Part shown: positions 11,546 to 61,820 of the stretch, piece by piece | How the letters are laid out: every line of letters starts with the position of its first letter | Numbering within the stretch: the first letter of the stretch is position 1 | Assembly (NCBI GenBank): GCA_024397875.1 | Contig: CP073344.1 | Coordinates: 797,001-861,000, forward strand | Length of the DNA stretch: 64,000 nucleotides | DNA from: Amphritea atlantica | GTDB taxonomy: Bacteria; Pseudomonadota; Gammaproteobacteria; Pseudomonadales; Balneatricaceae | Reading direction: 5' to 3' | The notes under the pieces: model-generated | Told to the model about the DNA's origin: nothing | Database searches by the model: none | What the model saw: only the letters and a program-made list of their open reading frames with translations | Program-made: the position numbers and the translations under genes

Positions 11546-11560
11546 ATTGTTGCCACCCAA

Positions 11561-11590: not shown

Positions 11591-11661
11591 TCATGCCCAT
11601 GCTGTTGGCTTTATATGTTACACACCCACTGACGGTAAGCCCCAATTACGGAGAATAAGGA

Positions 11662-12830: not shown

Positions 12831-12878
12831 CAAGGCAATTTTATGCGGACGCTCCGCTTCGTTGCGCGCCGGTTATTT
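12825..12878 (+). other. attC recombination site (array 1)
   Basis: 54 bp from ATATAAC (12825-12831) to GTTATTT (12872-12878), with an inverted-repeat core of the CGGACGCTCCGCTTCGTTGCG type common in short attC sites. The opening heptamer is the exact complement of the GTTATAT that starts the cassette 300 bp upstream. This is the rule for a cassette whose circular form carries one attC. Confidence 0.8.
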
Positions 12879-12896
12879 GCAGCGGTATTTATCCAT

Positions 12897-45944: not shown

Positions 45945-46879
45945 GGCAGTTCGACCTGCGCCGGGACTCCGTTGGGCAGTTGGGCTTCACTCTCCGGTAG
46001 CATTACCTCGGCGAGGTACATCAGCCGGGCGCGTTCTTCCTGATTCAGCGCATAGTAGGGGGTAAAGGCCGGTTCGGTGGCTATCCAGCTCAGATGGCCG
46101 GTGATCGGCTGATCAAGACCATCCACATGCACCACAAGCGGGTCACCGACCCTGAGCTTAATCCGATAGGGTTCCGGTACATAAATCCGCGCATGGGGCG
46201 CTTTACCCGCCAGCACAATCGCCAGGGGGCTGCCGATCGTGACCCGTTCACCCAGATTCCAGGGCAGGTTATCGAGAATGCCGTCGCGGGTGGCGGTGAT
46301 GGTGAGATCCGCAAGACGTTTGCTCTGGATAGCCAGCATCGCTTTTGCCGCATTCAAAGCCGCTTCGGCAGCCCGCAGATCCTCTTCACGGGTACCGTTT
46401 GTGAGTAGTAATAAGGCTTCCTGAGCGTTCTGTAAAACGGCCTGGTCAGCATCCCGTATTGCCCGTGCCCGGTCCAGCTCAGACTGACTCACCAGTTTCT
46501 GTTTTATCAGATTCAGAATGCGGATATGGTTGGCGCGGCTTTCAACCAGTGACGCCCGCGCGCCTGCCACCCTGGCCGCCGCTGCAGCCACTTCCTCCTC
46601 ACGCGCGCCATTTCTGAGTTTTTCCAGATTCGCTTGTGCCAGGGCAACTTCAGCGCTGGCTTTATCCACTTCCGACTGTTGCAGGGTTGAATCGAGCTTC
46701 ACCAGCAGCGTGCCTTTGGTCACCTGGGAACCGGGAGAAACTGGCAGCTCAACCACCACTTCGCTGGCCGTAGCGGTATGGGCTATCCGGTCTCTCTCCA
46801 GTGTACCCAGCGCAAGGTGATCAGAAGAATCACTGCAGGCTGCGAGAAACGGCAATAACAGATAAATAAGATAGCGCAT
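45941..46879 (-). CDS. HlyD-family membrane fusion lipoprotein
   Basis: 312 residues from the ATG at 46879, giving a lipoprotein signal with lipobox LAAC. An upstream ATG at 46909 adds 10 residues with no benefit. A biotinyl-lipoyl-like half motif (ELPVSPGSQVTKGTLLVKLD) precedes a long coiled-coil hairpin (about 65-175). The second half-motif and beta-barrel (GERVTIGSPLAIVLAGKAPHARIYVPEPYRIKLRVGDPL) follow. It bridges the efflux permease toward an outer-membrane channel, which is not encoded here. First gene of the efflux unit. Confidence 0.92.
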   Translation of the reverse strand: MRYLIYLLLPFLAACSDSSDHLALGTLERDRIAHTATASEVVVELPVSPGSQVTKGTLLVKLDSTLQQSEVDKASAEVALAQANLEKLRNGAREEEVAAAAARVAGARASLVESRANHIRILNLIKQKLVSQSELDRARAIRDADQAVLQNAQEALLLLTNGTREEDLRAAEAALNAAKAMLAIQSKRLADLTITATRDGILDNLPWNLGERVTIGSPLAIVLAGKAPHARIYVPEPYRIKLRVGDPLVVHVDGLDQPITGHLSWIATEPAFTPYYALNQEERARLMYLAEVMLPESEAQLPNGVPAQVELP

Positions 46880-47408
46880 GGTGTTGGCCTTCTGTGGCTT
46901 ACAAAGCACGGGCGAAAAAGAAAAAGCATTCGTAACTCGTTAATATTAGAACGATAAACCTAAACAGGCCGAACTGCCAGAGTCTTGGACGTTATGCAAA
47001 GCCCGTCTGTTATGCGAACACGACTCTCCCCAGGCAGAGAGGGGATAAGACTGTTATGGCCATTCAACGGGTTCAGTTTCAGGCACATCGGCGTTGCTTC
47101 AGGCGCAAGGTATCAGTTCGAAAGAGGTTGTAGGCGGTGTAATCCCGCAGTTGATAAGCTGGTATGGTTTGTCACTGGAATAACTCATAAAAGTGAGGCA
47201 TTATCAGACAGATAGGAAATATGGCAGGTGACAAAGCGTGCCATACAAAAACAGCAAACCGTGCTTGCGTGTTTTCAGGGGATGAAAAACGACGTGCTTC
47301 AGAATTATTCTTTCAGTTCAAATAGATACAACCTCCCCCGTCAAAGTCTAGCGGTGTCAAAACGCGCACGCACACAATTAAAATGTTAGCTTCTCTTGAG
47401 GCAGGTTC
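46880..47408. other. Gene-free boundary before the second cassette array
   Basis: About 530 bp without a convincing gene. GTTATGC core-like heptamers occur at 46991-46997 and 47009-47015, and GTTAGCT at 47385-47391 opens the first proven cassette. GC-rich GTGTCAAAACGCGCACG precedes it. I found no attI site or integrase promoter. Confidence 0.5.
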
Positions 47409-48221
47409 ATGATTCTATACAAGTACATGTCCTTCGGTGCCGCTCGAAAGGTGATTGAAACCCTGTCACTAGGGTTTTCATGTCTTGAAGATTTGAACGA
47501 CCCTTTTGAATGCACAGCCTTTGGTTTTAAAGATAGCGATGAGTCTATAAGCGCGAAAACCGCCACGGGTGCTTGTAGAAACCGTTTCTCGAGGAAATAC
47601 GGTGTTTTATCCTTGACTCGTCAGCCGTTAAACGCGCTTATGTGGTCGCATTATGGAGACTCTCATCAAGGAGTAGTTCTTGGATTCGATTGTGATTTGG
47701 CCGGCTTTTCAGACCCGCAAAGCAATGTGATTCCAAGCCAGTACGGAGAGATGATCTACTCAGCTACGAAGCCGCACAACGATCTCCCCATGATTGGCGA
47801 ACATGAGCTACTGAATATTGGTGGTAGCCTCCGCTTTGACTCGAGTGCCTTCAACCTAATGAAGAGAGCTTTTCTGTATAAGTCTCTCGAGTGGGCATAC
47901 GAAGAAGAAGTCCGTGTTGTAAAGAATATAGAGGATATCCCCTTCGGTTATCACACAGGCGGCGGTCGCTATTGTGAATGGAATAAGGTGATTGTCTCTG
48001 GTCGACCTCTATACTGCTTTGATGTGCCAGAGAACTCACTTAAGGAAATCTACTTGGGGCGGCATTTATATAGAAATGTTACCAAAGACGGCTCTGTTAC
48101 TGATGAAAATTTGAAAGGTGTGCTTCAGTCCTGGGGGAGAAAAGATATCAAGATGATGCAATGTGAACCCGATATTCACTCATGGAACCTCATTGCAAAA
48201 CCATCTATCAACAAAAGCTAA
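47409..48221 (+). CDS. DUF2971 family protein, integron cassette 1
   Basis: 270 residues. DUF2971 landmarks are LYKYMSFGAARKVIET at the start, then LEDLNDPFECTA, VLSLTRQPLNALMWSHYGDSHQGVVLGFD and a C-terminal ReYLG-like IYLGRHL. Members are cytoplasmic and occur often in mobile islands and beside defence genes, but no reaction is established. The gene sits in a complete cassette: it begins 18 bp after GTTAGCT (47385), and its stop lies inside the exact complement AGCTAAC (48216-48222). Base composition is lower in GC than the flanking efflux genes. Confidence 0.9.
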   Translation: MILYKYMSFGAARKVIETLSLGFSCLEDLNDPFECTAFGFKDSDESISAKTATGACRNRFSRKYGVLSLTRQPLNALMWSHYGDSHQGVVLGFDCDLAGFSDPQSNVIPSQYGEMIYSATKPHNDLPMIGEHELLNIGGSLRFDSSAFNLMKRAFLYKSLEWAYEEEVRVVKNIEDIPFGYHTGGGRYCEWNKVIVSGRPLYCFDVPENSLKEIYLGRHLYRNVTKDGSVTDENLKGVLQSWGRKDIKMMQCEPDIHSWNLIAKPSINKS

Positions 48222-48287
48222 CCAATGGCTGTTGGCGGACGCGCCTACGCTGGCGCTCCGGCACGCCGCAAAGCCAGCGCGTTATGC
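48216..48287 (+). other. attC site 1 (array 2)
   Basis: 72 bp from AGCTAAC (48216-48222) to GTTATGC (48281-48287). Inside, arms GCTGGCG and its partner CGCCGCAAAGCCAGCGCG form an imperfect hairpin typical of attC. AGCTAAC is the exact complement of GTTAGCT at the start of the same cassette. Confidence 0.92.
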
Positions 48288-48336
48288 AAAAAAGAGATAT
48301 ATCGTCATTTAATTAAATACGGAGTATTTGCAATAA

Positions 48337-49992
48337 ATGTTTAAAAAATTAAGAGAAAATGCGGAAAAACTGGCCAATTCCGCAAAAGAATCTACGAACA
48401 ATGTTGCAGGTCAGGTTGGTGATATTGTTCCAGATAAAGTGATCGACTTGAAGGACAAAATAAAACAAACTACTTCCGAAGTATCAGAAAAAGCAGAGGG
48501 TCATATACCAGAGAAAGTTTCGGGTCGTTACAGTGAACTTAAAAATACTCTTGAAGATACAATTGCTGATTTATCTGATAAAGCTGGCGACTACTTGGAT
48601 TCCAATCTGGAAGAAATTGAAAGCTATTGTTCATGGTGCTTTGAGAAGCATGGCTGTACTCCCAAAGAAAAAAATAATTTCTCCCGCAATATTTATACAT
48701 GTAATGGCTGTGGGAAAGAAATTGTAAAATGCCGTGCTTGTAATAACAAAGCAAAATTTGCTGGTGAAGAAAATGTCGCTAGTGATGACGTTGGTATTTG
48801 GTCAGGAAATTTTTGTGCTGTACACGAAGGCGTGATTGCCAAATTTGAAACTTTAAATTGGAAGCTCACAAGTATCGGCGAATTTAGGGATATTGTAGAA
48901 AGAGAAGAAAAAAATTATAAGAAAATAGGAACAACAGCAGCTTTCACCATTGGTGGCGCGGCTGTTATTGCTCCTTTAGCTCTTGCCGCAGCCCCTGCTG
49001 TAGGTGGGGCTATTGGTACATCCTTGCTAGGTTATAGCGGTGCAGCAGCAACAAATGCTGGTCTGGCTACATTAGGCGGAGGTGCTCTTGCTGCTGGGGG
49101 GGCAGGCATGGCTGGAGGCGTAGCAGTTGTTACAGCAGCGGGATCTGCGCTAGGAGGAAGATATGGAGCAGTTATTTCGAATGGCTATTATGGTGATATT
49201 GATGGCTTTGAAATAATAAAGATCAAACCAGGCAAAGGCCCTTCTGTAATTTGTATCGATGGTTTCTTGACCGAAAAATCTAAAGAAGCACCCAATAAAT
49301 GGCTGGAAGCTTTATCTGAAAAATATCCCGATAACGAAATATTCTATGTTAAATGGGAGGCCAAAAGGCTTCAAGATATTGCGAGTTCTGTTAGCCTTCT
49401 TGGCGGCAAAGAAATAGCTAAAAAAGGGCTTTTAGGTTTGGCTAAATCTGCATCAAAAACTGCAGCCACCAAGTTAGCCCCAGTAGGTGTAGCATTTCAG
49501 GCGCTTGGTCTGGCTACTAACCCGTGGTCTGTAGCAGGAGTAAAGGCTTATCAAACTGGTGCTTTGCTAGCAGATATTATTGCAAGAACTGACAGAGAAT
49601 ATATTTTGGTTGGGCACTCTTTAGGTGCTCGAGTAATATATTCATGCTTAGCCGCTCTAAAAACGAAAGATAAATGCTTTATAAGAGACGCTCACCTTCT
49701 TGGCGGTGCCATTAATAATAACTGTTCATCTATTGATGATGGTTCTAATAGTGTAAATTGGTCAGAAATTCATAACTCCGTTTCTGGAAACATTAATAAC
49801 TATTACAGTAAAAATGATTCTGTTCTAAAGTATTTGTACAAAGTAGGAGAAGGTGTGAAGTTTGATTTTGGTAAACCAATTGGTAGGCATTGTATTGAGA
49901 GCTCGAAAGTTAATAATTTTGATGTTTCCAAATATGTTAGTGGTCACGCTGAATACAAGGAGAAGTTGCGTGATTATTTATTGCAACAATAA
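48337..49992 (+). CDS. DUF726-like alpha/beta hydrolase with zinc ribbon, integron cassette 2
   Basis: 551 residues in four parts. Residues 1-90 are an amphipathic, repeat-like helix region (IVPDKVIDLKDKIKQ / HIPEKVSGRYSELKN), reminiscent of late-embryogenesis or apolipoprotein-like repeats. Residues ~95-150 form a zinc ribbon (CSWCFEKHGC, CNGCGKEIVKCRACN). Residues ~205-270 are a Gly/Ala-rich membrane hairpin. The C-terminal half is an alpha/beta hydrolase of the DUF726 (TMCO4) type, with nucleophile Ser428 in LVGHSLGARV. A hydrolase acting at a membrane is inferred. Very large for a cassette gene. GC is low, and the cassette boundaries are exact (GTTATGC and GCATAAC). Confidence 0.87.
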   Translation: MFKKLRENAEKLANSAKESTNNVAGQVGDIVPDKVIDLKDKIKQTTSEVSEKAEGHIPEKVSGRYSELKNTLEDTIADLSDKAGDYLDSNLEEIESYCSWCFEKHGCTPKEKNNFSRNIYTCNGCGKEIVKCRACNNKAKFAGEENVASDDVGIWSGNFCAVHEGVIAKFETLNWKLTSIGEFRDIVEREEKNYKKIGTTAAFTIGGAAVIAPLALAAAPAVGGAIGTSLLGYSGAAATNAGLATLGGGALAAGGAGMAGGVAVVTAAGSALGGRYGAVISNGYYGDIDGFEIIKIKPGKGPSVICIDGFLTEKSKEAPNKWLEALSEKYPDNEIFYVKWEAKRLQDIASSVSLLGGKEIAKKGLLGLAKSASKTAATKLAPVGVAFQALGLATNPWSVAGVKAYQTGALLADIIARTDREYILVGHSLGARVIYSCLAALKTKDKCFIRDAHLLGGAINNNCSSIDDGSNSVNWSEIHNSVSGNINNYYSKNDSVLKYLYKVGEGVKFDFGKPIGRHCIESSKVNNFDVSKYVSGHAEYKEKLRDYLLQQ

Positions 49993-50009
49993 AGTTACTA
50001 AAACTAAAG

Positions 50010-50097
50010 GCATAACAAGGAAATTTCACGCGGACGGAAAAAAGCACCGTTCGTTCCTCACTATGCTTTTCGCCTCCGGTGAATTGTGACGTTATGT
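50010..50097 (+). other. attC site 2 (array 2)
   Basis: 88 bp from GCATAAC (50010-50016) to GTTATGT (50091-50097). The arms AATTTCACGCGG and CCGGTGAATT pair with extra bases on one side, as attC hairpins do. GCATAAC is the exact complement of the GTTATGC that opens the same cassette (48281). Confidence 0.92.
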
Positions 50098-50112
50098 TCA
50101 AAAGGAGGATTG

Positions 50113-50520
50113 ATGGGCACTTTCTACGAGGAAGAAGCATTGCAGGTCGAACTGCATGCTGCCGAACAATATCCCACCGAAAAAGAAGCTCTGCGCGCTA
50201 TGACTGTCGCAGGTTTTCGAATTATTCAGAATTCTCGGCAACTTGATAAAAGGGCTATGCGCACGGATGTGTTTCGGTTTCTGCTAAGCCCAAGAGCCTT
50301 GAGCTACTGGAAAGAAAAAGGGTTGCTAGAACCTAGGGGCAGAACGGAAGTGGTTCGTCTTACGGATGAGGGGTTGTCTGTATGCTCAGGGAGTTTGCAC
50401 GAAGAGGTCGTAACAAGCACTAGGGAATCAGCAATCACTCAATGGGAAACACTAATGATTTCAGGTGGCGCGCTCACATCGAAATCGAAGGTGTTTTCTC
50501 TACCGCTGTCGAGAACATGA
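50113..50520 (+). CDS. Small protein of unknown function, integron cassette 3
   Basis: 135 residues from the ATG at 50113, which follows AAAGGAGG, one of the best ribosome sites in the window. The frame open to 50086 is not needed. The middle (FRFLLSPRALSYWKEKGLLEPRGRTEVVRLTDEGLSVC) looks like a winged-helix core with a beta hairpin, so DNA binding or a domain such as a transcription-factor-like adaptor is possible. I recognise no family. The stop (TGA) lies inside ACATGAC, one base off the expected ACATAAC. Confidence 0.78.
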   Translation: MGTFYEEEALQVELHAAEQYPTEKEALRAMTVAGFRIIQNSRQLDKRAMRTDVFRFLLSPRALSYWKEKGLLEPRGRTEVVRLTDEGLSVCSGSLHEEVVTSTRESAITQWETLMISGGALTSKSKVFSLPLSRT

Positions 50521-50629
50521 CAATTAGTTCCAGCGGTCCCCAAACCCCGCGCGGCTTTTTGCACATGCCTTCGGCATTGTTGCGCAAACGCCTCGCTACG
50601 TTTGGGCCCACTGAACAAGGGCGTTAGGT
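50515..50629 (+). other. attC site 3 (array 2)
   Basis: 115 bp from ACATGAC (50515-50521) to GTTAGGT (50623-50629). Arms CCCCAAAC and GTTTGGGC pair, with inner TGCCTTCGGCA forming the tip. ACATGAC differs by one base from the exact complement of GTTATGT at 50091. The mismatch coincides with the stop codon of cassette 3. Confidence 0.85.
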
Positions 50630-50647
50630 TTGTAAGTGAGTTCAAGG

Positions 50648-51046
50648 ATGAAAAGGTCGATAAAATATGCTCTCTGGTTTGTTCTGATTTTTGGGGCTGG
50701 AGCTTACACTGGCGGTCAAATAGCAACTGCTTATTACAAACCTCTCAACTTGACTAATTTGATAGGCTATCAAACCCATCAAGCTTCCTCCTATGCTGTT
50801 CTTTTTGGTGGAAATGAGGACGTTAAGGCAAAAGAGTTAATTTTTAGTGATCTGAAATTAAATTTGTTAAAAGCTAACATCCACCAAGAAAAACTTCCTA
50901 GCACTATGAAGGAGCATTTGTGCAGCCAGCTACTGAAGGTTGTGGAGGATAGAGAGTCTATAGAAGCTTTTGCTTTCGGTTTGCCTCAATCAGAAACAGA
51001 GATATCTGAATTAATAACTGATATTGGCAGGTGTGAAACATGGTAA
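50648..51046 (+). CDS. Small membrane-anchored protein, integron cassette 4
   Basis: 132 residues from ATG 50648 (or GTG 50636, which adds 4). A single N-terminal membrane helix (YALWFVLIFGAGAYTGGQIATAYY) is followed by a soluble helical part with LLKANIHQEKLPSTMKEHLCSQLLKVVEDRES. It could be a bitopic inner-membrane protein with a periplasmic or cytoplasmic domain. No family is recognised. The cassette runs from GTTAGGT (50623) to the exact complement ACCTAAC (51047-51053), directly after the stop. Confidence 0.75.
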   Translation: MKRSIKYALWFVLIFGAGAYTGGQIATAYYKPLNLTNLIGYQTHQASSYAVLFGGNEDVKAKELIFSDLKLNLLKANIHQEKLPSTMKEHLCSQLLKVVEDRESIEAFAFGLPQSETEISELITDIGRCETW

Positions 51047-51101
51047 ACCTAACAAGAAAAGCCATCCGACGTATACTGCGCGGCTGCTTTAAGCGTTAAA
51101 T
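51047..51101 (+). other. attC site 4 (array 2)
   Basis: A short 55-bp site from ACCTAAC (51047-51053) to GTTAAAT (51095-51101). The opening heptamer exactly complements the start of cassette 4. Its right end is joined directly to an IS remnant. Confidence 0.85.
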
Positions 51102-51194
51102 GTCCGAGTGCCCCACAATTTGTAGACACTTTCTATCGTTATAATTAACTGAAAGTGGAGGTGCTACATGGCTAAACGGAAGTATCAATCTTAA
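51102..51194 (+). mobile_element. Remnant of an IS3-type insertion sequence (left end)
   Basis: The sequence after the attC (GTGCCCCACAATTTGTAGACA) looks like the terminal inverted repeat of an IS3-family element. 45 bp later a good ribosome site (GGAGG) precedes an ATG at 51168 reading MAKRKYQS and then TAA. This is a typical opening for an IS3 OrfA but broken after eight codons. No right end was found. Confidence 0.5.
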
Positions 51195-51359: not shown

Positions 51360-52568
51360 TTACGACGGTTCTGGATTGGGCGCCGAGGAGCTGGGGTCTT
51401 GACGGCTGTGTGTACTGCCACGTTTATAACTTGAATGCCTTGAAGCGATGCCGTCTGCAATCCTTTTTGCGGCGACGGTAGCCGCGTCGAAATAGCCCGT
51501 GAGCGTGGTCTTGTACCCGCAAAACCAGAGGCCAGGATGACTCGGGTCGAATTCGCCAGCGCTACACTTAGGGCGCCCATCTCGATTCAGTACACCCATG
51601 CCAGCGAACCAGCCTTCAAGGCCGGAGCGATAACCCGTGGCGCAAATGATGATTTCGGGTTTGATGATGGAGCCGTCACCTAATTGCACGGCATCGGTGT
51701 TGAATGCCATCGTTTCACTAACAATCTGCATTTGGCCGCGTTTGAGCGCAGCGACAAAGCCGTCGTCCAGTGCCGGTGAAATACCATCAACGTTCAGTCG
51801 CGTGCCGCCGCCATCGGGGTGACTGTGCAGGCCGTAACGCGACAGCTTTCCATAGACTAAGCGCTGAGTCAGTGCCAGTGCAGCATCGAGTACCGGCAAG
51901 GGCAATAAAGTAAAAAGCTTCGCCAGTCGGTGCATCGGGAAGCCAAACAAGCGGGTTGGCATTATCGTCGGGCCGTGCCGCAGTGACACCCAGACCTTAC
52001 CGGTGGGTATTCGTGACAGATGATTGAGTACATCGGTGCCCGAATTGCCGGCGCCGACCACCAGGATGTCACGTTCGGCATAGCGCGCGATGTCCCCCAG
52101 TGCTGCGGCATGCAGGATTTCACCGCTGTATGTATCACGCTCAGGCCAATCAGGTATATAAGGGATTTTCTCGCGGCCAGTGGCGACGACGATATGGTTA
52201 GATTCGAGTGATCCTTTGTTGGTATCAACCCGCCAATGCTCCCCTTGACGCGATATTTGCTGTACCTCGGTCTCGAATTGTATCGGCAGGTTGAGTTGGC
52301 GCGCGAAGGTTTCCAGGTGGCCTACCACTGCGTCGCGCGGGACAAAATCACCGTGTCGTTTATCCATCGGCAAACCCGGTAAACTGGCAAACTTGCGGTA
52401 GATATTCAGTTTGAGCTGTGGATGCCTCGCCCGCCACGGCTCTGCGATTTGCGATGCGGCATCGATGATAGTCGCTTTGATGCCTTTCGCTTTGAGGGCG
52501 TGTGCGGTAGTCAGGCCGGACAAGCCGGCACCGATAATAATGACGTTATGAAAGGTTGGTTGTGACAT
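51360..52568 (-). CDS. FAD/NAD(P)-dependent flavin monooxygenase-like protein
   Basis: 402 residues. N-terminal FAD-binding Rossmann motif IIIGAGLSGLTTAHALKAKG, a middle HIVVATGREKIPYIPDWP, the second dinucleotide motif ILVVGAGNSGTDVLNHL (NAD(P)H) and a late IIICATGYRSGLE are the order expected for FMO-type monooxygenases. Substrate is unknown. The C-terminal tail is Ser/Pro-rich. It runs convergent to the array and in the same direction as the methyltransferase upstream, 180 bp away. Confidence 0.9.
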   Translation of the reverse strand: MSQPTFHNVIIIGAGLSGLTTAHALKAKGIKATIIDAASQIAEPWRARHPQLKLNIYRKFASLPGLPMDKRHGDFVPRDAVVGHLETFARQLNLPIQFETEVQQISRQGEHWRVDTNKGSLESNHIVVATGREKIPYIPDWPERDTYSGEILHAAALGDIARYAERDILVVGAGNSGTDVLNHLSRIPTGKVWVSLRHGPTIMPTRLFGFPMHRLAKLFTLLPLPVLDAALALTQRLVYGKLSRYGLHSHPDGGGTRLNVDGISPALDDGFVAALKRGQMQIVSETMAFNTDAVQLGDGSIIKPEIIICATGYRSGLEGWFAGMGVLNRDGRPKCSAGEFDPSHPGLWFCGYKTTLTGYFDAATVAAKRIADGIASRHSSYKRGSTHSRQDPSSSAPNPEPS

Positions 52569-52747
52569 GGGTCATGTACTCCTTCAATGATTGCTTTAGG
52601 GCGTCGCGGTGTTGTTGGTTGCGCTGTTACTGGTTGCACATCCGCTATACGACGCGCATTCCCTTGGCGAGAAACAGATTCTTTGTGGGGCCAAGATGAT
52701 TGAGTTAGGAAAGACCAGCGCACTTAGTGCTGTGGCCTTGCTGTTCG

Positions 52748-53845
52748 TTACGGCCTTAATACCCAATAGTCATTCTGGATATCGTGGGGTAGCTGGTGCA
52801 CATCGATACGGCTGAAGCCGGCACGCGTAAAGTAATCACGCGCGACCTCACGACCCCACATGGTGCCTAAACCTTCACCACCTTGTGCGAGAGACACACT
52901 CATACAATGCATGATCGAGATGGTGTAAAGCAGTGGGCCCAACGGGTGCTCGCGATCATGATGATGATGGCTGGATGAATGGATGTCCTGTGCCAAATAC
53001 ACACCATTGCGTTTGAGCGTGCGACAAATGCCTTGCAGCAGATTGAGCGGTTTGGCCTGATCATGAATGGCATCAAAAGTGGTCACAAAATCAAAGGCTT
53101 GGGTCTCTGCGGTGCTATTAAAGTCGGACAAGTCTCTAACCTCAAATGACACGTTGTTTAAACTTCGCCGCTCGGCCTGTTCGCACGCCCAGGTAATCGC
53201 GTCTTGTGACAGGTCGTAGCCCTTGAAGTGACTGTTGGGAAAGCGCTCGGCCATTTCCATTAATGCGAGACCGCGACCACAGCCTAAGTCGAGCACGTGA
53301 ATACCAGCCTCCAGACGCTCGGGTATCTCGGGCGCCAATGGCAGTATGCTGTCGAATAGAGCAGGCAACACGGTCTGGCCACTGTCTTCGGCCATCACCT
53401 CATGGAAACGATGAAATTTTTCGTAGGGCACACCTTTGCCATGCTGGAAGCTCTCGAGGACGTCATCCTCAACTTGGCCGAGCAGGGGAATGTACTGGGC
53501 AAATACGGCTAGGTTAGCGTCGCGACCATTAGTAAGCAGCGCGGCGTGTTCAGGTGGTAAGCGGTAAGTCATGCTGTCGGCGTCGTGCTCCACAATGCCT
53601 GATACCGTCAGTCCGCCAAGCCATTCGCGAATATAACGTTCATTGAGTTGGCTAAGGCGGGCCAGCTCGCTAGAGGTGACGGCTACGCCATTAGCCAATT
53701 GATCAAACAAGCCAGCGCGATGGCCGAGTGACACCAGTTGTAACATACCGCTTTCATTTAACGCATGAACAAAACGGTTTTCAAACTCAGCTTGGCGATG
53801 ATTGTCGAGCGCCGAACCTGACGGGCTAAGTGTTGCGATTTCCAT
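52748..53845 (-). CDS. Class I SAM-dependent methyltransferase with N-terminal winged helix
   Basis: 365 residues. The N-terminal ~90 residues (LVSLGHRAGLFDQLANGVAVTSSELARLSQLNERYIREWLGGLTVSG) are a winged-helix dimerisation domain as in O-methyltransferases. The SAM site is HVLDLGCGRGLALMEMAE (about residue 185), with the acidic loop GYDLS. A histidine cluster (SSSHHHHDREHP) follows. It is close to the MT family found with GlxA-type regulators. It diverges from such a regulator at 53967, suggesting control by it. Confidence 0.9.
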   Translation of the reverse strand: MEIATLSPSGSALDNHRQAEFENRFVHALNESGMLQLVSLGHRAGLFDQLANGVAVTSSELARLSQLNERYIREWLGGLTVSGIVEHDADSMTYRLPPEHAALLTNGRDANLAVFAQYIPLLGQVEDDVLESFQHGKGVPYEKFHRFHEVMAEDSGQTVLPALFDSILPLAPEIPERLEAGIHVLDLGCGRGLALMEMAERFPNSHFKGYDLSQDAITWACEQAERRSLNNVSFEVRDLSDFNSTAETQAFDFVTTFDAIHDQAKPLNLLQGICRTLKRNGVYLAQDIHSSSHHHHDREHPLGPLLYTISIMHCMSVSLAQGGEGLGTMWGREVARDYFTRAGFSRIDVHQLPHDIQNDYWVLRP

Positions 53846-53966
53846 TTTTAACTCCTTGAAGTGTTTTGCTAGTGCCGGAACTTTTCAGTCCGGAGTGCTA
53901 GCTAGTATGAAACCCGACGGTCCGTTAAACTAAAGTGTAAAAAGACGAAAAACGGTCATTTCCGCC

Positions 53967-54986
53967 ATGAGCCACTTAAAACCTCGCATCGCATTACTGG
54001 CAATTCCCGAAGTCGCTGCCTCGACACTGTACGGTATGAATGATGTGTTCGCCTCGGCTGGACGCGACTGGGCGGCCTTGGTGGAGGGCAAGAAAGGCGA
54101 GTCGGTACTCGATCCGCGAGTGGTGTCCTTCCGAGGGCCAGGGCCTATGACGCTGACCAATGGCGTTCGAATTGTGCCGGATGAGGACGACGGGGTAGTA
54201 CCGGACGTGGTCTGCGTACCGGAAGTGGCGGTCGCGCCGGGTGCCGTGTTAACCGACTCCCACCGAGATGAAATTGCTTGGTTGCGTCGCTGCTATGAAG
54301 GCGGTGCCATAGTTGCCACGGCCTGTTCTGGCGCCCTGCTGCTCGCCGAGACCGGATTGTTAAACGGCAGTGAAGCGACGACTCACTGGGCCTATTGTGA
54401 CGCCTTGTCATGTTACCCCGGTGTGCAGGTTCACCCGAATCGCGCGCTGGTTGTTGGAGGTGAAGGTGGGCGTCTTATCATGGCCGGCGGCGGCACCTCG
54501 TGGGAGGACCTGGCGCTTTATCTGGTGGCACGCTTGGTTAGTGTTGACGAAGCTATGCACATCGCTAAGCTGTTCCTCATCGATTGGCATGATGTCGGTC
54601 AGTTACCTTATGCAGCCTTAGCGCGCGGCAGTCAGGTTGATGATGCCGGAATCGCTCACTGCCAAAACTGGATTGCCGAGCACTATGAGCGCTCTTCGCC
54701 CGTGGCAACCATGATTCAGCTCAGCGGCATGACCGAACGCACCTTTAACCGGCGTTTCAAACTGGCAACCGGAATGTCGCCTATCGATTATGTGCATACC
54801 TTGCGTATTGAGGAAGCAAAGCAGTTACTTGAAAGCGACGACCAACCCGTTGAAGCCATCGCGCAAGATGTTGGTTATGAAGACGCTGCTTTTTTTGGAC
54901 GGTTATTTCGCCGCAAAGTAGGAATTACACCCCTTCAGTACCGTAAACGTTTTCGGGGTTTGCGGCGGGCGCTTGAGGCAACATAA
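53967..54986 (+). CDS. GlxA-family AraC transcriptional regulator (DJ-1/PfpI plus HTH)
   Basis: 339 residues. Residues ~5-190 form a DJ-1/PfpI-like domain with the catalytic-type nucleophile region VATACSGALLLAETGLL. Residues ~225-335 are an AraC helix-turn-helix (TERTFNRRFKLATGMSPIDYVHTLRIEEAKQLLE then EDAAFFGRLFRRKVG). This is the GlxA/FtrA class, which often regulates amine, quaternary-ammonium or aldehyde metabolism. It is divergent from the methyltransferase, with 121 bp between them for shared control. Confidence 0.93.
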   Translation: MSHLKPRIALLAIPEVAASTLYGMNDVFASAGRDWAALVEGKKGESVLDPRVVSFRGPGPMTLTNGVRIVPDEDDGVVPDVVCVPEVAVAPGAVLTDSHRDEIAWLRRCYEGGAIVATACSGALLLAETGLLNGSEATTHWAYCDALSCYPGVQVHPNRALVVGGEGGRLIMAGGGTSWEDLALYLVARLVSVDEAMHIAKLFLIDWHDVGQLPYAALARGSQVDDAGIAHCQNWIAEHYERSSPVATMIQLSGMTERTFNRRFKLATGMSPIDYVHTLRIEEAKQLLESDDQPVEAIAQDVGYEDAAFFGRLFRRKVGITPLQYRKRFRGLRRALEAT

Positions 54987-55033
54987 TTCATAATCATGAG
55001 CTGGACGAATATTTTAACGATAGGAGTAATTTT

Positions 55034-55534
55034 ATGAGACAGACGGAGGTTCTGACCCGCTACAAGGCTTGGGCAGACGAGTTGATTTTATCAGCGTTGT
55101 CTTCGCTTCCCGATACGGAGCTTACCGCACCGCGCCCAATCGTCTTTGGTAATTTGCTTCGCACGCTCAACCACGCCTATCAAATGGACCACGTCTGGAA
55201 ATGTCACCTGCTAGGCAAACCTCACGGTTTAACCACCCGCAACCCCAAAGAGTGTCCGGAACTGAAGGAGCTGATTGTAGGCCAGCGCAGCATAGATGAG
55301 TGGTATGTTAACTACGCTGATGCAACCGCAGAGAATGAACTGGAGGAGATTGTAGAATTTGAGTTTATTGGCGGAGGAACCGGAAAAATGAATCGCCGGG
55401 ATATCCTTGTGCATGTTGTAAACCATACCACCTACCACCGCGGCCACGTTGCTGGCATTCTCTATCAGCTCAATGTTTCGCCACCAGTCACTGACTTTCC
55501 GGTGTTCTTACGGGACATTTCGGATGGCACTTAA
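55034..55534 (+). CDS. DinB family protein
   Basis: 166 residues. The four-helix DinB/YfiT-like fold is indicated by LLRTLNHAYQMDHVWKCHLLG and the C-terminal VHVVNHTTYHRGHVAGILYQL. These supply three histidines that usually bind a metal. Some members are thiol-dependent S-transferases (bacillithiol, mycothiol or glutathione users) and others are of unknown function. The ATG follows TAGGAG. The stop lies in CTTAACC, after which a GC-rich, attC-resembling stretch leads to the next gene. Confidence 0.9.
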   Translation: MRQTEVLTRYKAWADELILSALSSLPDTELTAPRPIVFGNLLRTLNHAYQMDHVWKCHLLGKPHGLTTRNPKECPELKELIVGQRSIDEWYVNYADATAENELEEIVEFEFIGGGTGKMNRRDILVHVVNHTTYHRGHVAGILYQLNVSPPVTDFPVFLRDISDGT

Positions 55535-55622
55535 CCAATCGCTTAAAGTTGCTCCGGCTCTCTGGGCCTCAACCGGATGCGCTAAAGCGCGTCGTTTAGT
55601 TTGCATTAGCACCCTGAATGGT

Positions 55623-56294
55623 ATGAAGCGTTTTCGGGTGATTTTTGGGTTGTTGCCGTGCGTGGTTTTTGGCGCAGAAAGTGTCTGCCATGGAACAACA
55701 TCTGATGGGCGCCTGGAAAATGGTGTAGAGCTACCCCGGTCAGGCCCGAACTTCGTCACATATAGTAACGTTGCAAGAATCGCTGGGCGAACCTACGTAC
55801 ATTCTGAGGTTAGTGAAATTATAGTGGCTGCCTATGCTGAGCTTGAAAAAGAGCTGCCCAACAAGGTTTATAAGTACGCTGAAACCGGATTTGAGGAAGG
55901 CGGAGAGTTCAAGCCGCACAAGACTCATCGAAATGGTCTTTCAGTCGACTTTATGACGCCGGTTAAGAGCAGGCAGGGGGCGTCTGTACACCTCCCGACA
56001 TATCCCTGGAATAAATTTGGTTATAGTATTGAATTTGATGAAAGGGGTCGATTTGAAGACCTTATGATTGATTACGATGCACTGGCGGCCCATATCGTTG
56101 CATTGGATCGTGCAGCAAAGTCGAGAGATCACAAAATATGGCGTGTAATATTTGATCCTGAATTACAGGCAGGTCTCTTTAATACACGATACGGGGACTA
56201 TATACAGTCCAATATCGCATTATCTAAAAAGCGCTCATGGGTAAGGCACGACGAGCACTATCACGTTGATTTTGTGGTGCCATGTGAAAAGTAG
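55623..56294 (+). CDS. MepA/LAS-type murein endopeptidase-like protein
   Basis: 223 residues with a Sec-type signal sequence (FGLLPCVVFGAES). The metal site of penicillin-insensitive murein endopeptidases is visible: HKTHRNGLSVDF (His102 and Asp109) and RHDEHYHVDF (His212, His214). It probably cuts peptide cross-links in peptidoglycan in the periplasm. At about 200 mature residues it is shorter than MepA. I start at ATG 55623; the open frame continues up to 55449 inside the DinB gene but is not signal-like. An attC-like 80 bp precedes it. Confidence 0.8.
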   Translation: MKRFRVIFGLLPCVVFGAESVCHGTTSDGRLENGVELPRSGPNFVTYSNVARIAGRTYVHSEVSEIIVAAYAELEKELPNKVYKYAETGFEEGGEFKPHKTHRNGLSVDFMTPVKSRQGASVHLPTYPWNKFGYSIEFDERGRFEDLMIDYDALAAHIVALDRAAKSRDHKIWRVIFDPELQAGLFNTRYGDYIQSNIALSKKRSWVRHDEHYHVDFVVPCEK

Positions 56295-56348
56295 GGCAGG
56301 CATGATGCTGGCGTTAGCTTTCCGCGACCATACTGGAATATATGAGTC

Positions 56349-56966
56349 ATGAAAGATTCAAAGACATTTTGGGATAAAGCAGCTGAAAAGTATATTAAGA
56401 GTCCCATTAAAGACGAAGCTGCGTATCAGAAGAAGCTGGCAATTACCCAGGCCTTCCTGAGGCCGGATTACAAGGTGCTGGAGTTCGGCTGCGGCAGTGG
56501 TGCCACCGCAATTTTTCATGCGCCTCATGTGGCACAGGTTGTTGCTACGGATATATCTGACAAGATGATCGAAGCGGCTCAGAGAAAAGCGGTCGAAGCC
56601 GGCGTAAAGAACATTGTTTTTCAGCAGGGAACACTCGACAGTCTACAATTCAAAAATGAAAGTTTTGACGCTGTCTTGGGACTGAATGTGTTACATCTTT
56701 TGGAAGATGTCGATGGCGCGATAGTAAAAGTACATCAACTTCTAAAAAATGAGGGTGTATTTGTGTCAAGCACGTCGCTAATAGCAGAAATCAATTTAGC
56801 TTTTCGGTGGCTGATCTCTGGCATGCAGTTGCTTGGTTTAGCGCCTTATGTCAGCCGCTTTACGAAGCGTCAGCTGATTTCCAAATTATTGAAAGCAGGT
56901 TTTACGATTGAACGGGAATGGCAGGCTAGCCATGAATCGGTCTTCATAGTCGCCAGGAAAGTCTGA
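56349..56966 (+). CDS. Class I SAM-dependent methyltransferase
   Basis: 205 residues. Motif I is VLEFGCGSGATAIFHAPH (SAM binding), with VVATDISDKMIEAAQRKA as the acidic-loop region and FDAVLGLNVLHLLED as motif IV of UbiE/BioC-like methyltransferases. Substrate is unknown. ATG at 56349 follows a weak ribosome site (GGAATAT). Gene 55 bp after the endopeptidase. It may be part of a small accessory set, since AT-rich codon use resembles the cassette genes more than the core. Confidence 0.88.
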   Translation: MKDSKTFWDKAAEKYIKSPIKDEAAYQKKLAITQAFLRPDYKVLEFGCGSGATAIFHAPHVAQVVATDISDKMIEAAQRKAVEAGVKNIVFQQGTLDSLQFKNESFDAVLGLNVLHLLEDVDGAIVKVHQLLKNEGVFVSSTSLIAEINLAFRWLISGMQLLGLAPYVSRFTKRQLISKLLKAGFTIEREWQASHESVFIVARKV

Positions 56967-57313
56967 TCAATAAGTGGGGTTCAGACTAACAACCGGCTGT
57001 TATCGCCTCTTCGGGGTAGGGACTGCTTTTCCGCCGCTTAGCGGCTAAACGTCAGCCCTGGGGCAGAACTGCAAAATAGATGATCTGCCCCCTGCAGCAG
57101 AGAAGGAAACCCGGATATTTGGGGGCAGTGTAATAGTTCATAGAGGCGTTGACTGGCAATGAGCGATTTAAAGAAGGGATCGAGTCATTATCAGGTCGAG
57201 GCGTGATTGTCTTGAAGCGAGGCCCAGTGCCTGAAAATGAAAGCTTCAGTTGTTATTCTGACTCTAAACAGACCCCAATATCGCTGACCTCAAATATCCA
57301 CCACGTGACCTGC
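56967..57313. other. Gene-free stretch with small hairpin
   Basis: About 350 bp. A GCCGC-TTA-GCGGC hairpin sits near 57036-57048 and a GACTAACAACCGG segment near 56990 resembles attC edges, but no complete site can be built. A 65-codon frame at 57149 has no protein-like features. Confidence 0.4.
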
Positions 57314-58219
57314 TTAATCGTGGCCTATATAGGGATTGGCCCTTAGTCGATCAATCGCAAGGTCGATAAACGATCGGATCTTGGCGTTGGCTTGTCGCCC
57401 TTCGAGATGAACAATGCTGACCGGCAGTGGTTTGCTTTCGTAGTCTTCGAGTATGCGCGTCAGGGAACCGTTTTTTAATTCCTCGCCCACCTGATAGGAC
57501 ATAAGCCGGGTGATTCCAAACCCTTGTTTAGCCGCTGTAATTGCCGCTCCATTCTGGGAGCAGTGCAGGCGGGGGGCAACTTTTACGGACTCCTTGCCTG
57601 TGGATGATTCAAATTGCCACGTCGTTGACGGTTCAACGGTTGAGGCCTGAATGATTTCATGCTCTTTGAGCTCGGAAGGGTGGTTGGGTATGCCATGTTT
57701 TTTCAAATAGATGGGTGCAGCGCATACCAGCCGCTGAACGCTTCCGACGGGTGTGGCATAGATACTTGAATCCTTAAGGTGACCAATCCGGATAGCCACG
57801 TCCAAACCCTCATCGAGTATATTACTGATGCGATCGTAGAAAACTGCTCTTACGGTTACCGATGGATTCTGCTGCAAATATTCCGTCAGAATCGGTGCGA
57901 TATGTATCTGACCAAACAATACCGGGGCCGTCACCGATAACACTCCTTTGGGTTCGGCGTAGCTTCCGGAGGCGGTAGCCACAGCCTGTTCGACATCTTC
58001 TAAAATCCGTTTGGCGTCTTCAAAAAAACGGGTACCCGAATCCGTAAGGCGGACATGACGGGTGGTTCTGTTGAACAGCCGCACACCCAGGACCTTCTCA
58101 AGCTGAGCGACAGATCGGGTTACCGCCGGGGCCGACAGATCCAGCTTGCGGCTGGCGGCAACGAAACTCTGACATTCCGCCACCTCGATGAAAACCCGCA
58201 TCGCTTCAAGTTTATCCAT
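57314..58219 (-). CDS. LysR family transcriptional regulator (CrgA-like)
   Basis: 301 residues. HTH: MDKLEAMRVFIEVAECQSFVAASRKLDLSAPAVTRSVAQLEKVLG. The effector domain includes GVLSVTAPVLFGQIHIAPILTEYL, the pattern of the CrgA/YafC subgroup. It diverges from the AhpD-like gene at 58352 with 132 bp between them, the usual arrangement for a LysR regulator and its target. The shared region is AT-rich with several TAATT/ATTA motifs. Confidence 0.93.
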   Translation of the reverse strand: MDKLEAMRVFIEVAECQSFVAASRKLDLSAPAVTRSVAQLEKVLGVRLFNRTTRHVRLTDSGTRFFEDAKRILEDVEQAVATASGSYAEPKGVLSVTAPVLFGQIHIAPILTEYLQQNPSVTVRAVFYDRISNILDEGLDVAIRIGHLKDSSIYATPVGSVQRLVCAAPIYLKKHGIPNHPSELKEHEIIQASTVEPSTTWQFESSTGKESVKVAPRLHCSQNGAAITAAKQGFGITRLMSYQVGEELKNGSLTRILEDYESKPLPVSIVHLEGRQANAKIRSFIDLAIDRLRANPYIGHD

Positions 58220-58351
58220 TCAATACCACACAGATTCATTAGCTACATTATTTCATTAACAGTAATAGATAATTAAATTTCAGTCTAATTATCTTTGTTT
58301 ATGTTAATTGTATGCTGGGCTCTCCAATCCGATAATATTTAGGAGCTAATC

Positions 58352-58900
58352 ATGTCTCGTATACCTACTCCGGCATCTGTTATGGCTGCACCGGAAGCCT
58401 CCAGAGGAGCACTTGAAGCGGTCAATACTCTTCTGGGCAGTGTTCCCAACCTGTTTCGCATTGTTGCCAACAGCCCGCAGACGCTGGAGGGCTACCTCGG
58501 TCTGAATGGTGCACTCGGTAACGGTTCACTGGATGTCCGGACCCGTGAGCGTATTGCCCTTGCTGTTGCCGAGGTCAATGGCTGCAACTACTGCCTCGCT
58601 GCACATCAGTATCTTGGTTCTAATCTGGCCGGGCTGAGCGCCGCTGAAATTGAAGCTAATCGCCGGGGTACCTCCGGTGACGAAAAAGCCGCAATAGCGG
58701 TGAACTTCGCCGTCAACATTGTGAACAACCGCGGCAAGGTATCTGATCGTGACTTCGAGATTGTGCGTGCTGCCGGCTATAGCGACGCAGAGATCGTGGA
58801 GATCGTGGGCCATGTTGCACTGAACACCCTGACTAACTACGTTAACGAAGTGCTGGGTACCGAAATCGACTTTCCGGTTGTCGATGCACTGGCGGCTTGA
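58352..58900 (+). CDS. Carboxymuconolactone decarboxylase/AhpD-like peroxidase-related protein
   Basis: 182 residues. The redox motif C78-NY-C81 plus H85 (EVNGCNYCLAAHQ) is the CxxC of AhpD-like alkylhydroperoxidases. The rest of the helical CMD fold follows. It probably reduces peroxides or a partner protein in the cytoplasm. First gene of a plus-strand group with DUF1348, PNPOx-like and exonuclease-like genes. A GAGC-rich ribosome site (AGGAGCTAATC) precedes the ATG. Confidence 0.92.
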   Translation: MSRIPTPASVMAAPEASRGALEAVNTLLGSVPNLFRIVANSPQTLEGYLGLNGALGNGSLDVRTRERIALAVAEVNGCNYCLAAHQYLGSNLAGLSAAEIEANRRGTSGDEKAAIAVNFAVNIVNNRGKVSDRDFEIVRAAGYSDAEIVEIVGHVALNTLTNYVNEVLGTEIDFPVVDALAA

Positions 58901-58954
58901 GTCAGTGTATGGGTGGCGTTTTCGCCACCCTTTACCCTTATAGGAGGATGCAAT

Positions 58955-59419
58955 ATGTCCAGACCCCCTCTGCCGCCTTTTGACGAAGCAGCGGCCATCG
59001 AAAAAATCCGGCTCGCTGAAGACGGCTGGAACGGCCGCGATCCCCAGAAGGTAGCGCTGGCCTATACCGAGAACTGCCTGTGGCGCAATCGGGCTGAGTT
59101 TGTGGCAGGACGCGAAGCCATAGTGCAGCTGCTGACACGCAAGTGGAGCCGTGAGCTTGACTACCGGCTTATCAAAGAACTGTGGGCATACACGGGGAAT
59201 CGAATTGCCGTTCGTTTTGCCTATGAATTTCATGATGACTCCGGACAGTGGTTTCGTGCCTATGGCAATGAAAACTGGGAGTTCGACGACAACGGCCTGA
59301 TGAGACAACGGATCGCCAGCATCAATGAGCATACGATCAGTGTTGAGGAACGAAAATTTCACTGGCCGCTTGGGCGTCGCCCTGATGATCATCCCGGCCT
59401 GAGCGATCTGGGCCTGTAG
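58955..59419 (+). CDS. DUF1348 (SnoaL/NTF2-like) protein
   Basis: 154 residues. The cone-shaped NTF2 fold is indicated by [44 protein letters not shown]. The late [29 protein letters not shown] end is the diagnostic tail of DUF1348. Function is not known. The ATG at 58955 has GGAGG 8 nt upstream; an in-frame ATG at 58913 is not needed. Same unit as the AhpD-like gene, 54 bp apart. Confidence 0.9.
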
Positions 59420-59448
59420 AGGTGCCCTGGAGAAAGAGGTATGTAAAG

Positions 59449-60066
59449 TTGACCTATACAAGCGATATCGCCTTTACCGAGAGTGTAAAGGCAATTCAGT
59501 CGAGAAAGGGGTCCAGGGATATTTATGCCCGAATGGAAGAAAACGGCGGGTGGCAAAGTGAAATTACCCCCGAGCTGGCGGGCTTTATCGCTGCACAGAG
59601 AAGTTTCTATCTGGCGACCGTTAATGCTGAGGGTCAGCCTTATATCCAGCATCGTGGTGGTCCGCCGGGTTTTCTGAAGGTTATCGACAGGCAAACCCTC
59701 GCTTTTGCAGACTATCAGGGAAACAAGCAGTTTATTACTCAGGGAAATTTAACCGATAACCCCAGGGCGTTTATCTTCTTAATGGATTACGCCAACAGGA
59801 CTCGAGTCAAAATCTGGGGAAGCGCAAAAGTGGTAGAGGATCAGCCAGCGCTTTTGACTGAACTGATGCCCAGCCGGGATCTATACAAGGCACGACCGGA
59901 GCAAGTAGTAATTTTTACCATTGATGCCTGGGATCAGAACTGTCCACAACATATTCCGCAACGGATTGATCGGGAGGATGTTGAAGAACTGTTGCAGCAG
60001 CGTGATCAGCGGATCGCAGAACTGGAAGAGCAAGTGCGTCTTCTGAAAGGTGCGGCAGATGAGTGA
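59449..60066 (+). CDS. Pyridoxamine 5'-phosphate oxidase-like flavoprotein
   Basis: 205 residues if started at TTG 59449, which has AGAGG upstream and the family-like N-terminus LTYTSDIAFTESVKAIQ. A GTG at 59422 would add nine basic residues. The split-barrel fold is seen in FYLATVNAEGQPYIQHRGGPPGFLKVID and GNKQFITQGNLTDNPRAFIFLMDY, which bind FMN. The C-terminal LEEQVRLL part is a short coiled coil. An FMN- or F420-type reductase role is inferred. It overlaps the start of the exonuclease gene. Confidence 0.85.
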   Translation: MTYTSDIAFTESVKAIQSRKGSRDIYARMEENGGWQSEITPELAGFIAAQRSFYLATVNAEGQPYIQHRGGPPGFLKVIDRQTLAFADYQGNKQFITQGNLTDNPRAFIFLMDYANRTRVKIWGSAKVVEDQPALLTELMPSRDLYKARPEQVVIFTIDAWDQNCPQHIPQRIDREDVEELLQQRDQRIAELEEQVRLLKGAADE

Positions 60067-60547
60067 TTTATGGATTTTGGACATCGAAGCCAGTGGACTG
60101 AGTCCCGTTAGTTACCCGATTGAGATTGGCCTGGTTAACGGCGAGCAGGCGTATCAAACACTTATTCTGCCTGAAGAGTCCTGGGTACACTGGAACCTAC
60201 GATCAGAAGCGTTGCACGGGCTTTCGCGTCAGGACCTCTACGACAAGGGCCGGCCGGTCGATGTGGTCGCAAAGGAGCTTAACAACCTATTGGCGTCTAA
60301 AATAGTGTATTCCGATCACGAAGACTGGGACAGCTTCTGGATGAGTCGCCTGTTTGAAGCGGCGGGTATTGAACAAAAATTTTATGTAGTGGATCTCAAT
60401 ACGCTTCTGGTCGGTAACAAAGCGAGCACTTTCGTCGCCTGCTTTGATGAGTTGTCACAAGCTAAAGGGCATCGTGCACATCGCGCTTTGAACGATGCGC
60501 GTATTATTCATCGTGCAGCCACTCTAGCACTGAATAGTGATGAATAA
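60059..60547 (+). CDS. 3'-5' exonuclease-like (DEDDh) protein
   Basis: 162 residues starting at ATG 60059, which overlaps the end of the preceding gene (8 bp). The exonuclease Exo I motif is LDIEASGLSP (D and E), Exo II reads YSDHEDWDSFW, and Exo III reads HRALNDARIIHRA (H then D). These are DEDDh-type features of RNase T/DNA polymerase III epsilon-like proteins. It probably trims RNA or DNA 3' ends. Small and without extra domains. Confidence 0.85.
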   Translation: MSDLWILDIEASGLSPVSYPIEIGLVNGEQAYQTLILPEESWVHWNLRSEALHGLSRQDLYDKGRPVDVVAKELNNLLASKIVYSDHEDWDSFWMSRLFEAAGIEQKFYVVDLNTLLVGNKASTFVACFDELSQAKGHRAHRALNDARIIHRAATLALNSDE

Positions 60548-60848
60548 CGCTCAATAACGTGATAAAGGAAACAGGGGCCGATCTTTTTTTGCTGCATCAC
60601 CAGGAAGGCTATTCAATTGGGATGCTGAATGAGATAGGAGATATTTCGGAATGATTTACTCATCGGCAAGCCGGGTGGGTAGAATATTCAAAATATAACC
60701 CAGTGACAGGGCTTAAACGGAAAAATGACAATCAATATTAAAGATGGTCAGCATGTCTGTGAGTTTGAGTATGAACTGGCATAATATTAGGCTCAAGCAA
60801 GGACGCGCGCCGCTTAGCTTGCCGATATACCTCTGTGAGGAATTTTTT
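60548..60848. other. Spacer before DUF3703 gene with attC-like hairpin
   Basis: 301 bp without a gene. Near 60791-60822, GGCTCAAGCAAGGACG faces an inverted CGCTTAGCTTGCC, which is attC-like in its middle. No GTT- or AAC-type end box is found. A GAGGA ribosome site precedes the next ATG (60849). Confidence 0.4.
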
Positions 60849-61217: not shown

Positions 61218-61316
61218 AAAATTACGCCGCCGGAAAAATTACTCGCTGGAGTTGGTCTTTGCCAAGTGAGTAAAACGCTATGCTGTACTAAACCAGCTTA
61301 CTTCGGAGTCACGGTT

Positions 61317-61757
61317 ATGATCGAAGCGAGAACACTGCGCACTTCCAGAGATTTGCCATATACACCCCAAGAAATATATGGCGCTTTTGCGTCGGCTGAG
61401 CTGTTGGCTTTATGGTGGGGGCCTGAAGGCTTTTCCAACAGCTTCGAAATTTTTGAGTTCACTGAGGGGGGGCGCTGGACGTTCATCATGCACGGCCCTG
61501 ACGGGAGTCACTATCCCAATGAAAGCTGCTTCGAAGAAATTGTGCCAGATAGCAAAATTGTCATCCATCATGATTGCCCTCCAAACTTCAGGCTTACTGT
61601 GCAGCTCACTCCTGTCAGTGACGGTACGCACTTGGTTTGGGAGCAAGTTTTTGAAGATGCCGAAACGGCGCAAGCCGTCAAACAGAGGGTTGGTTCAGCA
61701 AACGAACAGAACATTGATCGTCTGACACAAGTGCTCAGTGAAGTTTCCAATGCATAA
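61317..61757 (+). CDS. SRPBCC (AHSA1-like) domain protein, cassette-like
   Basis: 146 residues. START/SRPBCC fold: RDLPYTPQEIYGAFASAELLALWWGPEGFSNSFEIFEFTEGGRWTFIMHGPDGSHYPNESCFEEIVP, the AHSA1 pattern. It makes a hydrophobic cavity for a small ligand or a protein client. The start is ATG 61317 within GTTATGA (61314); a frame starting at 61266 is unlikely. Its stop lies in GCATAAC (61752), close to a complement of that heptamer, so the gene may be an integron cassette on its own. Confidence 0.88.
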   Translation: MIEARTLRTSRDLPYTPQEIYGAFASAELLALWWGPEGFSNSFEIFEFTEGGRWTFIMHGPDGSHYPNESCFEEIVPDSKIVIHHDCPPNFRLTVQLTPVSDGTHLVWEQVFEDAETAQAVKQRVGSANEQNIDRLTQVLSEVSNA

Positions 61758-61820
61758 CAAGAAGTCCTGATGGAGTCGCTTCGCGAACTCTACGCAACCC
61801 ACTGAGCATGGACGTTATAT
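61752..61820 (+). other. attC-like site after the SRPBCC gene
   Basis: 69 bp from GCATAAC (61752-61758) to GTTATAT (61814-61820). Partial arms GTCC/GGAC and AGTCGC/GCGAACT pair in between. GCATAAC differs by one base from the complement of GTTATGA that begins the gene. Less certain than the array-2 sites. Confidence 0.6.

Follow-up and report, generated by a model that had tools for sequence, protein, structure and literature searches.

Cassettes and attC sites of array 2

The window analysed here is a stretch of 64,000 nucleotides from Amphritea atlantica (GenBank assembly GCA_024397875.1, contig CP073344.1, positions 797,001 to 861,000 of the forward strand). It contains, at 47385-51101 of the + strand, an array of four integron cassettes without an integrase gene (array 2), which is headed by an element resembling an attI site. 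The array had been recognized in a first reading of the sequence (the original prediction), which took it for cassettes either deposited by an integrase acting in trans or left by a lost integron.

Cassette 1 (47385-48222) carries an open reading frame (ORF) at 47409-48221, whose DUF2971 product of 270 amino acids matches the PADLOC candidate defence family PDC-S31 (E 4e-23), and cassette 2 (48281-50016) carries an ORF at 48337-49992, whose DUF726 product of 551 amino acids matches the candidate defence family PDC-M09A (E 8e-11). Two of the four cassettes of array 2 thus look like candidate anti-phage families. The ORF of cassette 3 (50091-50521) ends at 50520 and begins with an ATG at 50113 as judged by eye, or alternatively with a GTG at 50086, while that of cassette 4 (50623-51053) spans 50636-51046, with an ATG at 50648 as judged by eye. 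The products of these last two cassettes had no family match above the Pfam curated cut-off, nor in NCBIfam or PADLOC at the thresholds used.

A simple fold-based scan for attC sites gave many chance matches without separating them from attC; it was replaced by a pairing heuristic and then by a covariance model (R1), trained on 26 attC sites selected by that heuristic, none of them from the window. R1 recovered exactly the four attC sites that had been predicted, at 48216-48287 (26.8 bits, E 1.8e-4), 50010-50097 (26.0 bits, E 2.8e-4), 50515-50629 (22.8 bits, E 1.9e-3) and 51047-51101 (40.2 bits, E 6.6e-8), all on the + strand. These scores of 22.8-40.2 bits are clearly above that of the best match below the six attC sites of the window (12.1 bits, E 0.96), the two others being located at 12825-12890 (28.0 bits) and 61752-61820 (22.9 bits). 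The attC structure was supported on the R1 training alignment, whose members had themselves been picked for pairing. Rfam returned no attC match at gathering level in the whole window or in 8000-53000, its single weak match being to an antisense RNA outside array 2.

The predicted complementarity between the start and the end of each cassette was found for GTTAGCT/AGCTAAC of cassette 1 (7/7), GTTATGC/GCATAAC of cassette 2 (7/7), GTTATGT/ACATGAC of cassette 3 (6/7, the R'' box of attC 3 being one base off) and GTTAGGT/ACCTAAC of cassette 4 (7/7). For random 7-mers of the window of the forms GTT(A/G)... and ...(C/T)AAC, the probability of such pairing is 0.0098 for 7/7 and 0.093 for at least 6/7. 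Array 2 therefore consists of genuine integron cassettes and, as predicted, no integrase is present in cis. With at least two attC sites and no integron integrase in cis, it has the features of a cluster of attC sites lacking an integron integrase (CALIN). The attC match at 61752-61820 lies 3' of a gene at 61266-61757, with no matching cassette start seen upstream by eye, and is perhaps a single decayed cassette.

The attI-like element at the head of array 2

A DNA search with the 1085 bases located 5' of cassette 1 showed that the final ~240 are repeated in the window genome and in its relatives. This element (47147-47388, + strand; family beta), which ends in ...CACACAATTAAAATGTTA at the start of cassette 1, is the putative docking site directly upstream of the cassettes and had been overlooked in the original prediction. 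In an uncultured Amphritea metagenome-assembled genome (MAG), G009, the sequence that separates intI from the first cassette matches this element at 91.3% identity over 242 bp.

We examined 22 copies of the beta element (the window copy, L092-L102, L104-L111, L065 and L074); short or contig-edge matches (G002, G003, G012 and some of G004) lie outside this set. The copies have a common right end at GTTA, with different sequences behind it, and ATGTTA is found at the boundary in 17 of the 22 (not in L097, L101, L104, L108 and L109). An end at the G|TT crossover with differing cassettes behind, as expected of an attI, is thus a feature of these 17 copies. The position expected of an attI, between intI and the first cassette, is found for the family in G009 (contig C60), where the beta copy lies directly behind an intact intI and is therefore the attI region of that integron. 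Of the other copies, L098 has an N-terminal intI remnant of 22 amino acids, and no intI was found next to the remaining 20.

The left ends of the copies vary and often reach the LexA-like box of the intI promoter. Such a box, with at least seven of the eight fixed letters of the consensus, is located 59-60 bases before the element in nine beta copies (L093, L094, L095, L098, L099, L104, L105, L106 and L111). LexA boxes at intI promoters are known, as stated in the accessible part of PMC8876359. All 54 attC matches counted in 21 beta loci are downstream of the element and on the same strand, a count that includes 18 R1 training sites and was made on unequal flanks (~3 kb upstream vs ~14 kb downstream); two of the 21 loci have no attC downstream. 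Judged by its sequence and position, the beta element is predicted to work as an attI site.

Short pieces of the beta element (L093:3170-3463, query ~153-193 and 264-294) matched other genera of the family, in 17 of 99 genomes and 7 of 16 genera including Amphritea, and are perhaps a conserved attI core. Behind the elements of two intI-less loci with different left flanks, L074:2433-3228 (G004) and L100:3998-4792 (G011), a stretch of 796 bp is common at 98% identity and is perhaps a shared cassette.

The locus of array 2 in related genomes

We compared the locus with those of G009, A. atlantica DSM 18887 (G016) and an Oceanospirillales MAG (G006). The left flank (46300-46983), beside an HlyD-like gene on the - strand, is continuous with that of G009 and G016 (~80%) and of G006 (86%), reaching 46983, 47104 and 46979, respectively. 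The right flank (57309-60678) matches that of G009 at 86.5% and that of G006 in two pieces at 85-90%. The order in G009 is left flank (to L095:4264), intI (4304-5308), beta element (5371-5612), array and right flank (from 12104), so that intI and attI, which are adjacent in a complete integron, are found side by side in G009 at the same locus and not in the window. The position of the G009 intI corresponds to 46984-47146. The distance from attI to the right flank is 9.9 kb in the window vs 6.5 kb in G009, with no nucleotide match between these inter-flank stretches (blastn, E 1e-6, at least 60 bp).

In G016, the left flank is followed by 121 bases common to the window (the first 121 bp of 46984-47146) but not to G009, and then by the beta element without intI; no right flank appears within the 14 kb compared and its sole attC match is weak (17.1 bits). 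The 121 common bases suggest that the loss of intI would be older than the split between the window genome and G016. G006 has both flanks and a C-terminal intI remnant, and neither the alpha (see below) nor the beta element was found between them. On a contig of A. pacifica, the left flank is accompanied by an N-terminal remnant (86 amino acids, 52%) of a different IntI and by two attC matches. The gene order fixed in all relatives that the original prediction had named as evidence against it was not seen, the cassettes not being fixed in relatives.

The same polymorphism is found at a second locus, where G011 (L099) has the left flank of an integron of the window genome whose integrase gene carries an in-frame TGA, as far as the intI stop; intI is missing from L099, where the beta element is present together with 10 attC matches.

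Integrases and attI-like places of the genome and genus

The search of the genome for intI proposed along with the original prediction gave two integron integrases above the TIGR02249 cut-off of 265 bits, an intact one at C1:2028104-2029045 (425 bits) and one with a single in-frame TGA at C1:1514670-1515608 (410 bits). The best solved relative of the intact IntI is IntI4 (2a3v, E 1.5e-86), and it is 96% identical to an IntI of G016. TIGR02249 matches above the cut-off are present in 7 of 17 Amphritea genomes. Six negative genomes have attC matches (E at most 0.1): G010 (18), G011 (20), G006 (16), G007 (19), G014 (8) and G012 (6); some of these are drafts, so that a missed intI is possible in each.

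The window genome has 15 attI-like places of four families: alpha (eight, one of only 124 bp), beta (four), that of the TGA-bearing integron (one) and delta (two). Two of the 15 adjoin intI, one intact and one with a stop. With a genome-wide attC count at E up to 1, for which 150 of 946 candidates were scored, 36 of 43 attC matches are within 10 kb downstream of an attI-like place and on the same strand, compared with an expected 1.6%; without the two intI-bearing integrons the count is 21 of 28. Two alpha places of the window genome have no attC behind them.

The alpha family is that of the intact integron. Searching 17 Amphritea genomes with its element of 322 bases gave 40 matches, which are spread over 8 genomes and include eight in the window genome. 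At 24 alpha loci, intI is intact at two (window genome and G016), an N-terminal remnant at one and absent from 21, and CTGTTR is at the expected end in 17. Fourteen of these loci have attC matches, and all 18 matches are downstream and on the same strand, counted over equal flanks on both sides, three of them having trained R1. The delta family is the least certain, because it was compared only with selected stretches and no intI-linked copy is known. G117 and G123, two genomes that belong to other families and have intact integrons, each contain a single copy of the attI region, with the exception of one 46-bp piece.

Array 1 (10381-12890, + strand) has a delta stretch before it (10381-10700; 87.5% identical to L222 at C1 ~957.6 kb, where an attC lies 0.8 kb downstream of the delta stretch), an alpha stretch inside it (12322-12508; ~72% identical to the attI region of the intact integron) and one attC (12825-12890; E 8.7e-5), the two attI-like stretches being 1.8 kb apart. 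With one attC match, it is weaker than array 2. The earlier view that two arrays point to repeated cassette entry thus holds in part, array 1 consisting of a single attC and two attI-like stretches of families other than that of array 2.

Origin of array 2

We regard array 2 as a sedentary integron at its ancestral chromosomal place, which has lost intI and kept its attI-like site, four cassettes and flanks; we put the probability of this reading at about 0.8. The reading is based on the attI-like element that heads the array and on G009, in which these two flanks enclose a complete integron. The integrase gene would have been deleted after the integron had settled at this locus, and the other attI-like places of the genus may mostly have had the same origin. 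Several results weigh on the other side. No intI or intI remnant was found at the locus in the window, and the element-linked intI of the G009 type is not intact in the window genome, the intact IntI being ~50% identical to it. The window copy of the element may be decayed, since its best LexA-like box is a poor one (6/8) and a search for forward sigma-70-like promoters within it gave none. Finally, 7 of the 43 attC matches have no attI-like place found nearby.

These seven matches, together with the intact IntI encoded elsewhere in the genome, would agree with array 2 being a bare CALIN, in which an integrase acting in trans had put the cassettes at a chance site (attG) and the preceding repeat were incidental. 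Against this, the end of the repeat coincides with the cassette boundary in 17 of 22 beta copies, and the repeat is the intI-to-cassette stretch of G009, where a complete integron occupies the same locus, which makes a bare CALIN decidedly improbable. The attI-like stretch could instead have moved as an attI-ended cassette or small mobile unit, the solitary attI sites resulting from dispersal rather than from loss of intI. Attributes of array 1, with its attI-like stretches of different families so close together, and the lack of any intI remnant at most copies agree with such dispersal, as does the recombination of attI-ended cassettes with IntI1 reported in the available text of PMC12901181. 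It is made unlikely by the flanks and the G009 integron, which indicate vertical descent at the window locus, by the intI remnants that adjoin some copies (L098 and L221) and by the variable left ends of the copies, which often extend to the LexA-like box of the intI promoter. If the element were a common dispersed repeat, such as a miniature inverted-repeat transposable element or a regulatory stretch, and stood before cassettes by chance, this would account for the five beta copies without ATGTTA, the two loci without attC downstream and the short pieces matching other genera. Such a repeat is most improbable given the position of every counted attC downstream on the same strand (54/54 for beta, 18/18 for alpha) and the three integrons (nat1, G016:C9 and G009) in which a copy separates an intact intI from the first cassette.

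An integron that lost intI thus remains our reading of array 2. Of the two origins in the original prediction, a lost integron fits this locus and deposition in trans does not, given the attI-like element at the head of the array and the complete intI-bearing integron between the same flanks in a related genome. The label CALIN likewise describes an attC array without intI in cis correctly, but it implies bare attC sites and undersells array 2, since an attI-like site is present.

Possible array turnover and action in trans

Insertion or excision of cassettes at array 2 may still be possible in trans, through an IntI encoded elsewhere. We compared orthologous places that are without intI in both partners. 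At locus B, the window genome and G006 have the element and both flanks in common, with 5.2 vs 5.0 kb between them and no match between the arrays except 75 bp of an insertion sequence; each partner has three weak attC matches (18.6-25.8 bits), and the GTT motif is gone from G006. At locus C, the window genome and G016 have 6.1 vs 3.0 kb without a match, and three attC sites vs one. Arrays that differ at orthologous intI-less sites modestly suggest an integrase acting in trans. The differences would fit cassette exchange after the loss of intI, though separate losses following exchange would look identical. Locus pairs D and E were left out of this comparison, since one partner of each (L097 and L108) has no boundary motif.

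A stretch of 1588 bp, which the intact integron and an intI-less array (C1:1406 kb) have in common at 100% identity, was considered as a cassette transfer and rejected. It is an insertion sequence, which interrupts an attC within TAACAAG at both positions and whose ORF matches IS110 (PF02371 and PF01548), and it was therefore dropped as evidence for action in trans. This IS110-family insertion lies at L093:4500-6087 and in L017 (- strand), with the same split point in both, and resembles IS1111-attC elements. A greater conservation of the element than of its flanks was not used as an argument, the comparisons being inconsistent: the element is the more conserved between the window and G009 (91% vs 80% and 86.5%), between the window and G016 (84.4% vs 80%) and at locus B (93% vs 87% and 91%), but not at locus C (84% vs 87%), and the result is mixed at locus E (88.8% vs 78.5% and 92.9%).

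Between attC 4 and the right flank, six genes are located at 51360-56966 (a flavin monooxygenase, methyltransferases, an AraC-like regulator and others). R1 gave no attC match among the genes from 51.3 to 57 kb, and these six genes are not in the G009 array at the nucleotide level. Directly behind attC 4, the stretch 51104-51172 (+ strand) is 91% identical over 70 bp to L227:4740-4671, so that two arrays of the window genome carry these ~70 bp immediately after an attC (the second attC being L227:4743-4823). This repeat may be the end of an IS3-type element.

Comparison with known systems

In Xanthomonas, the accessible part of PMC12444791 describes an integron at a fixed chromosomal place, whose intI is often broken or lost while cassettes remain. 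Array 2 is like this ilvD integron in its fixed locus, its loss of intI and its retained cassettes. Unlike Xanthomonas, for which the same part of that source gives one canonical locus and CALINs at seven others and does not mention attI at these, the window genome has attI-like sites of several families at 15 places, heading most of the arrays detected. Array 2 likewise resembles a CALIN in combining attC sites and cassettes with the absence of intI in cis, and differs from one in its recognizable attI-like head. IntegronFinder 2.0 detects attI for class 1 only, according to the text available for PMC9024848, and the CALIN class thus leaves the presence of attI unasked. The scattered cassettes (single attC sites lacking an integron integrase, SALIN, and CALIN) of Shewanella genomes with and without intI are comparable, but attI is undescribed at them in the portion of PMC9229058 consulted. 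The attI-ended (delta-attI) cassettes of classes 1 and 2 share with array 2 an attI located away from intI, within arrays; in what is accessible of PMC12901181, these are attI pieces of 14-244 nt behind an ORF in mobile integrons, whereas here ~240 bp stand before whole chromosomal arrays. In the literature covered (titles and the starts of abstracts, with subscription papers mostly outside), we found no description of scattered attI sites in one genome.

Array 2 is made of known parts in an unusual arrangement and is one of many such arrays in Amphritea. Since the tools seek no attI outside class 1, integrase-less arrays usually enter the counts simply as attC clusters. Most of those in the window genome have an attI-like head that is recognizable by comparison of species. 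One or two integrases encoded at a single place may serve many intI-less attI platforms of Amphritea, each with its own array, as a distributed integron, an idea that we hold tentatively and consider rather doubtful; if it were true, cassettes could enter and be rearranged in trans at many places on the chromosome. If the attI-like sites work, capture could also take place away from the integrase gene itself, and the old question of whether arrays without an integrase are still active or only relics could be put to a direct test.

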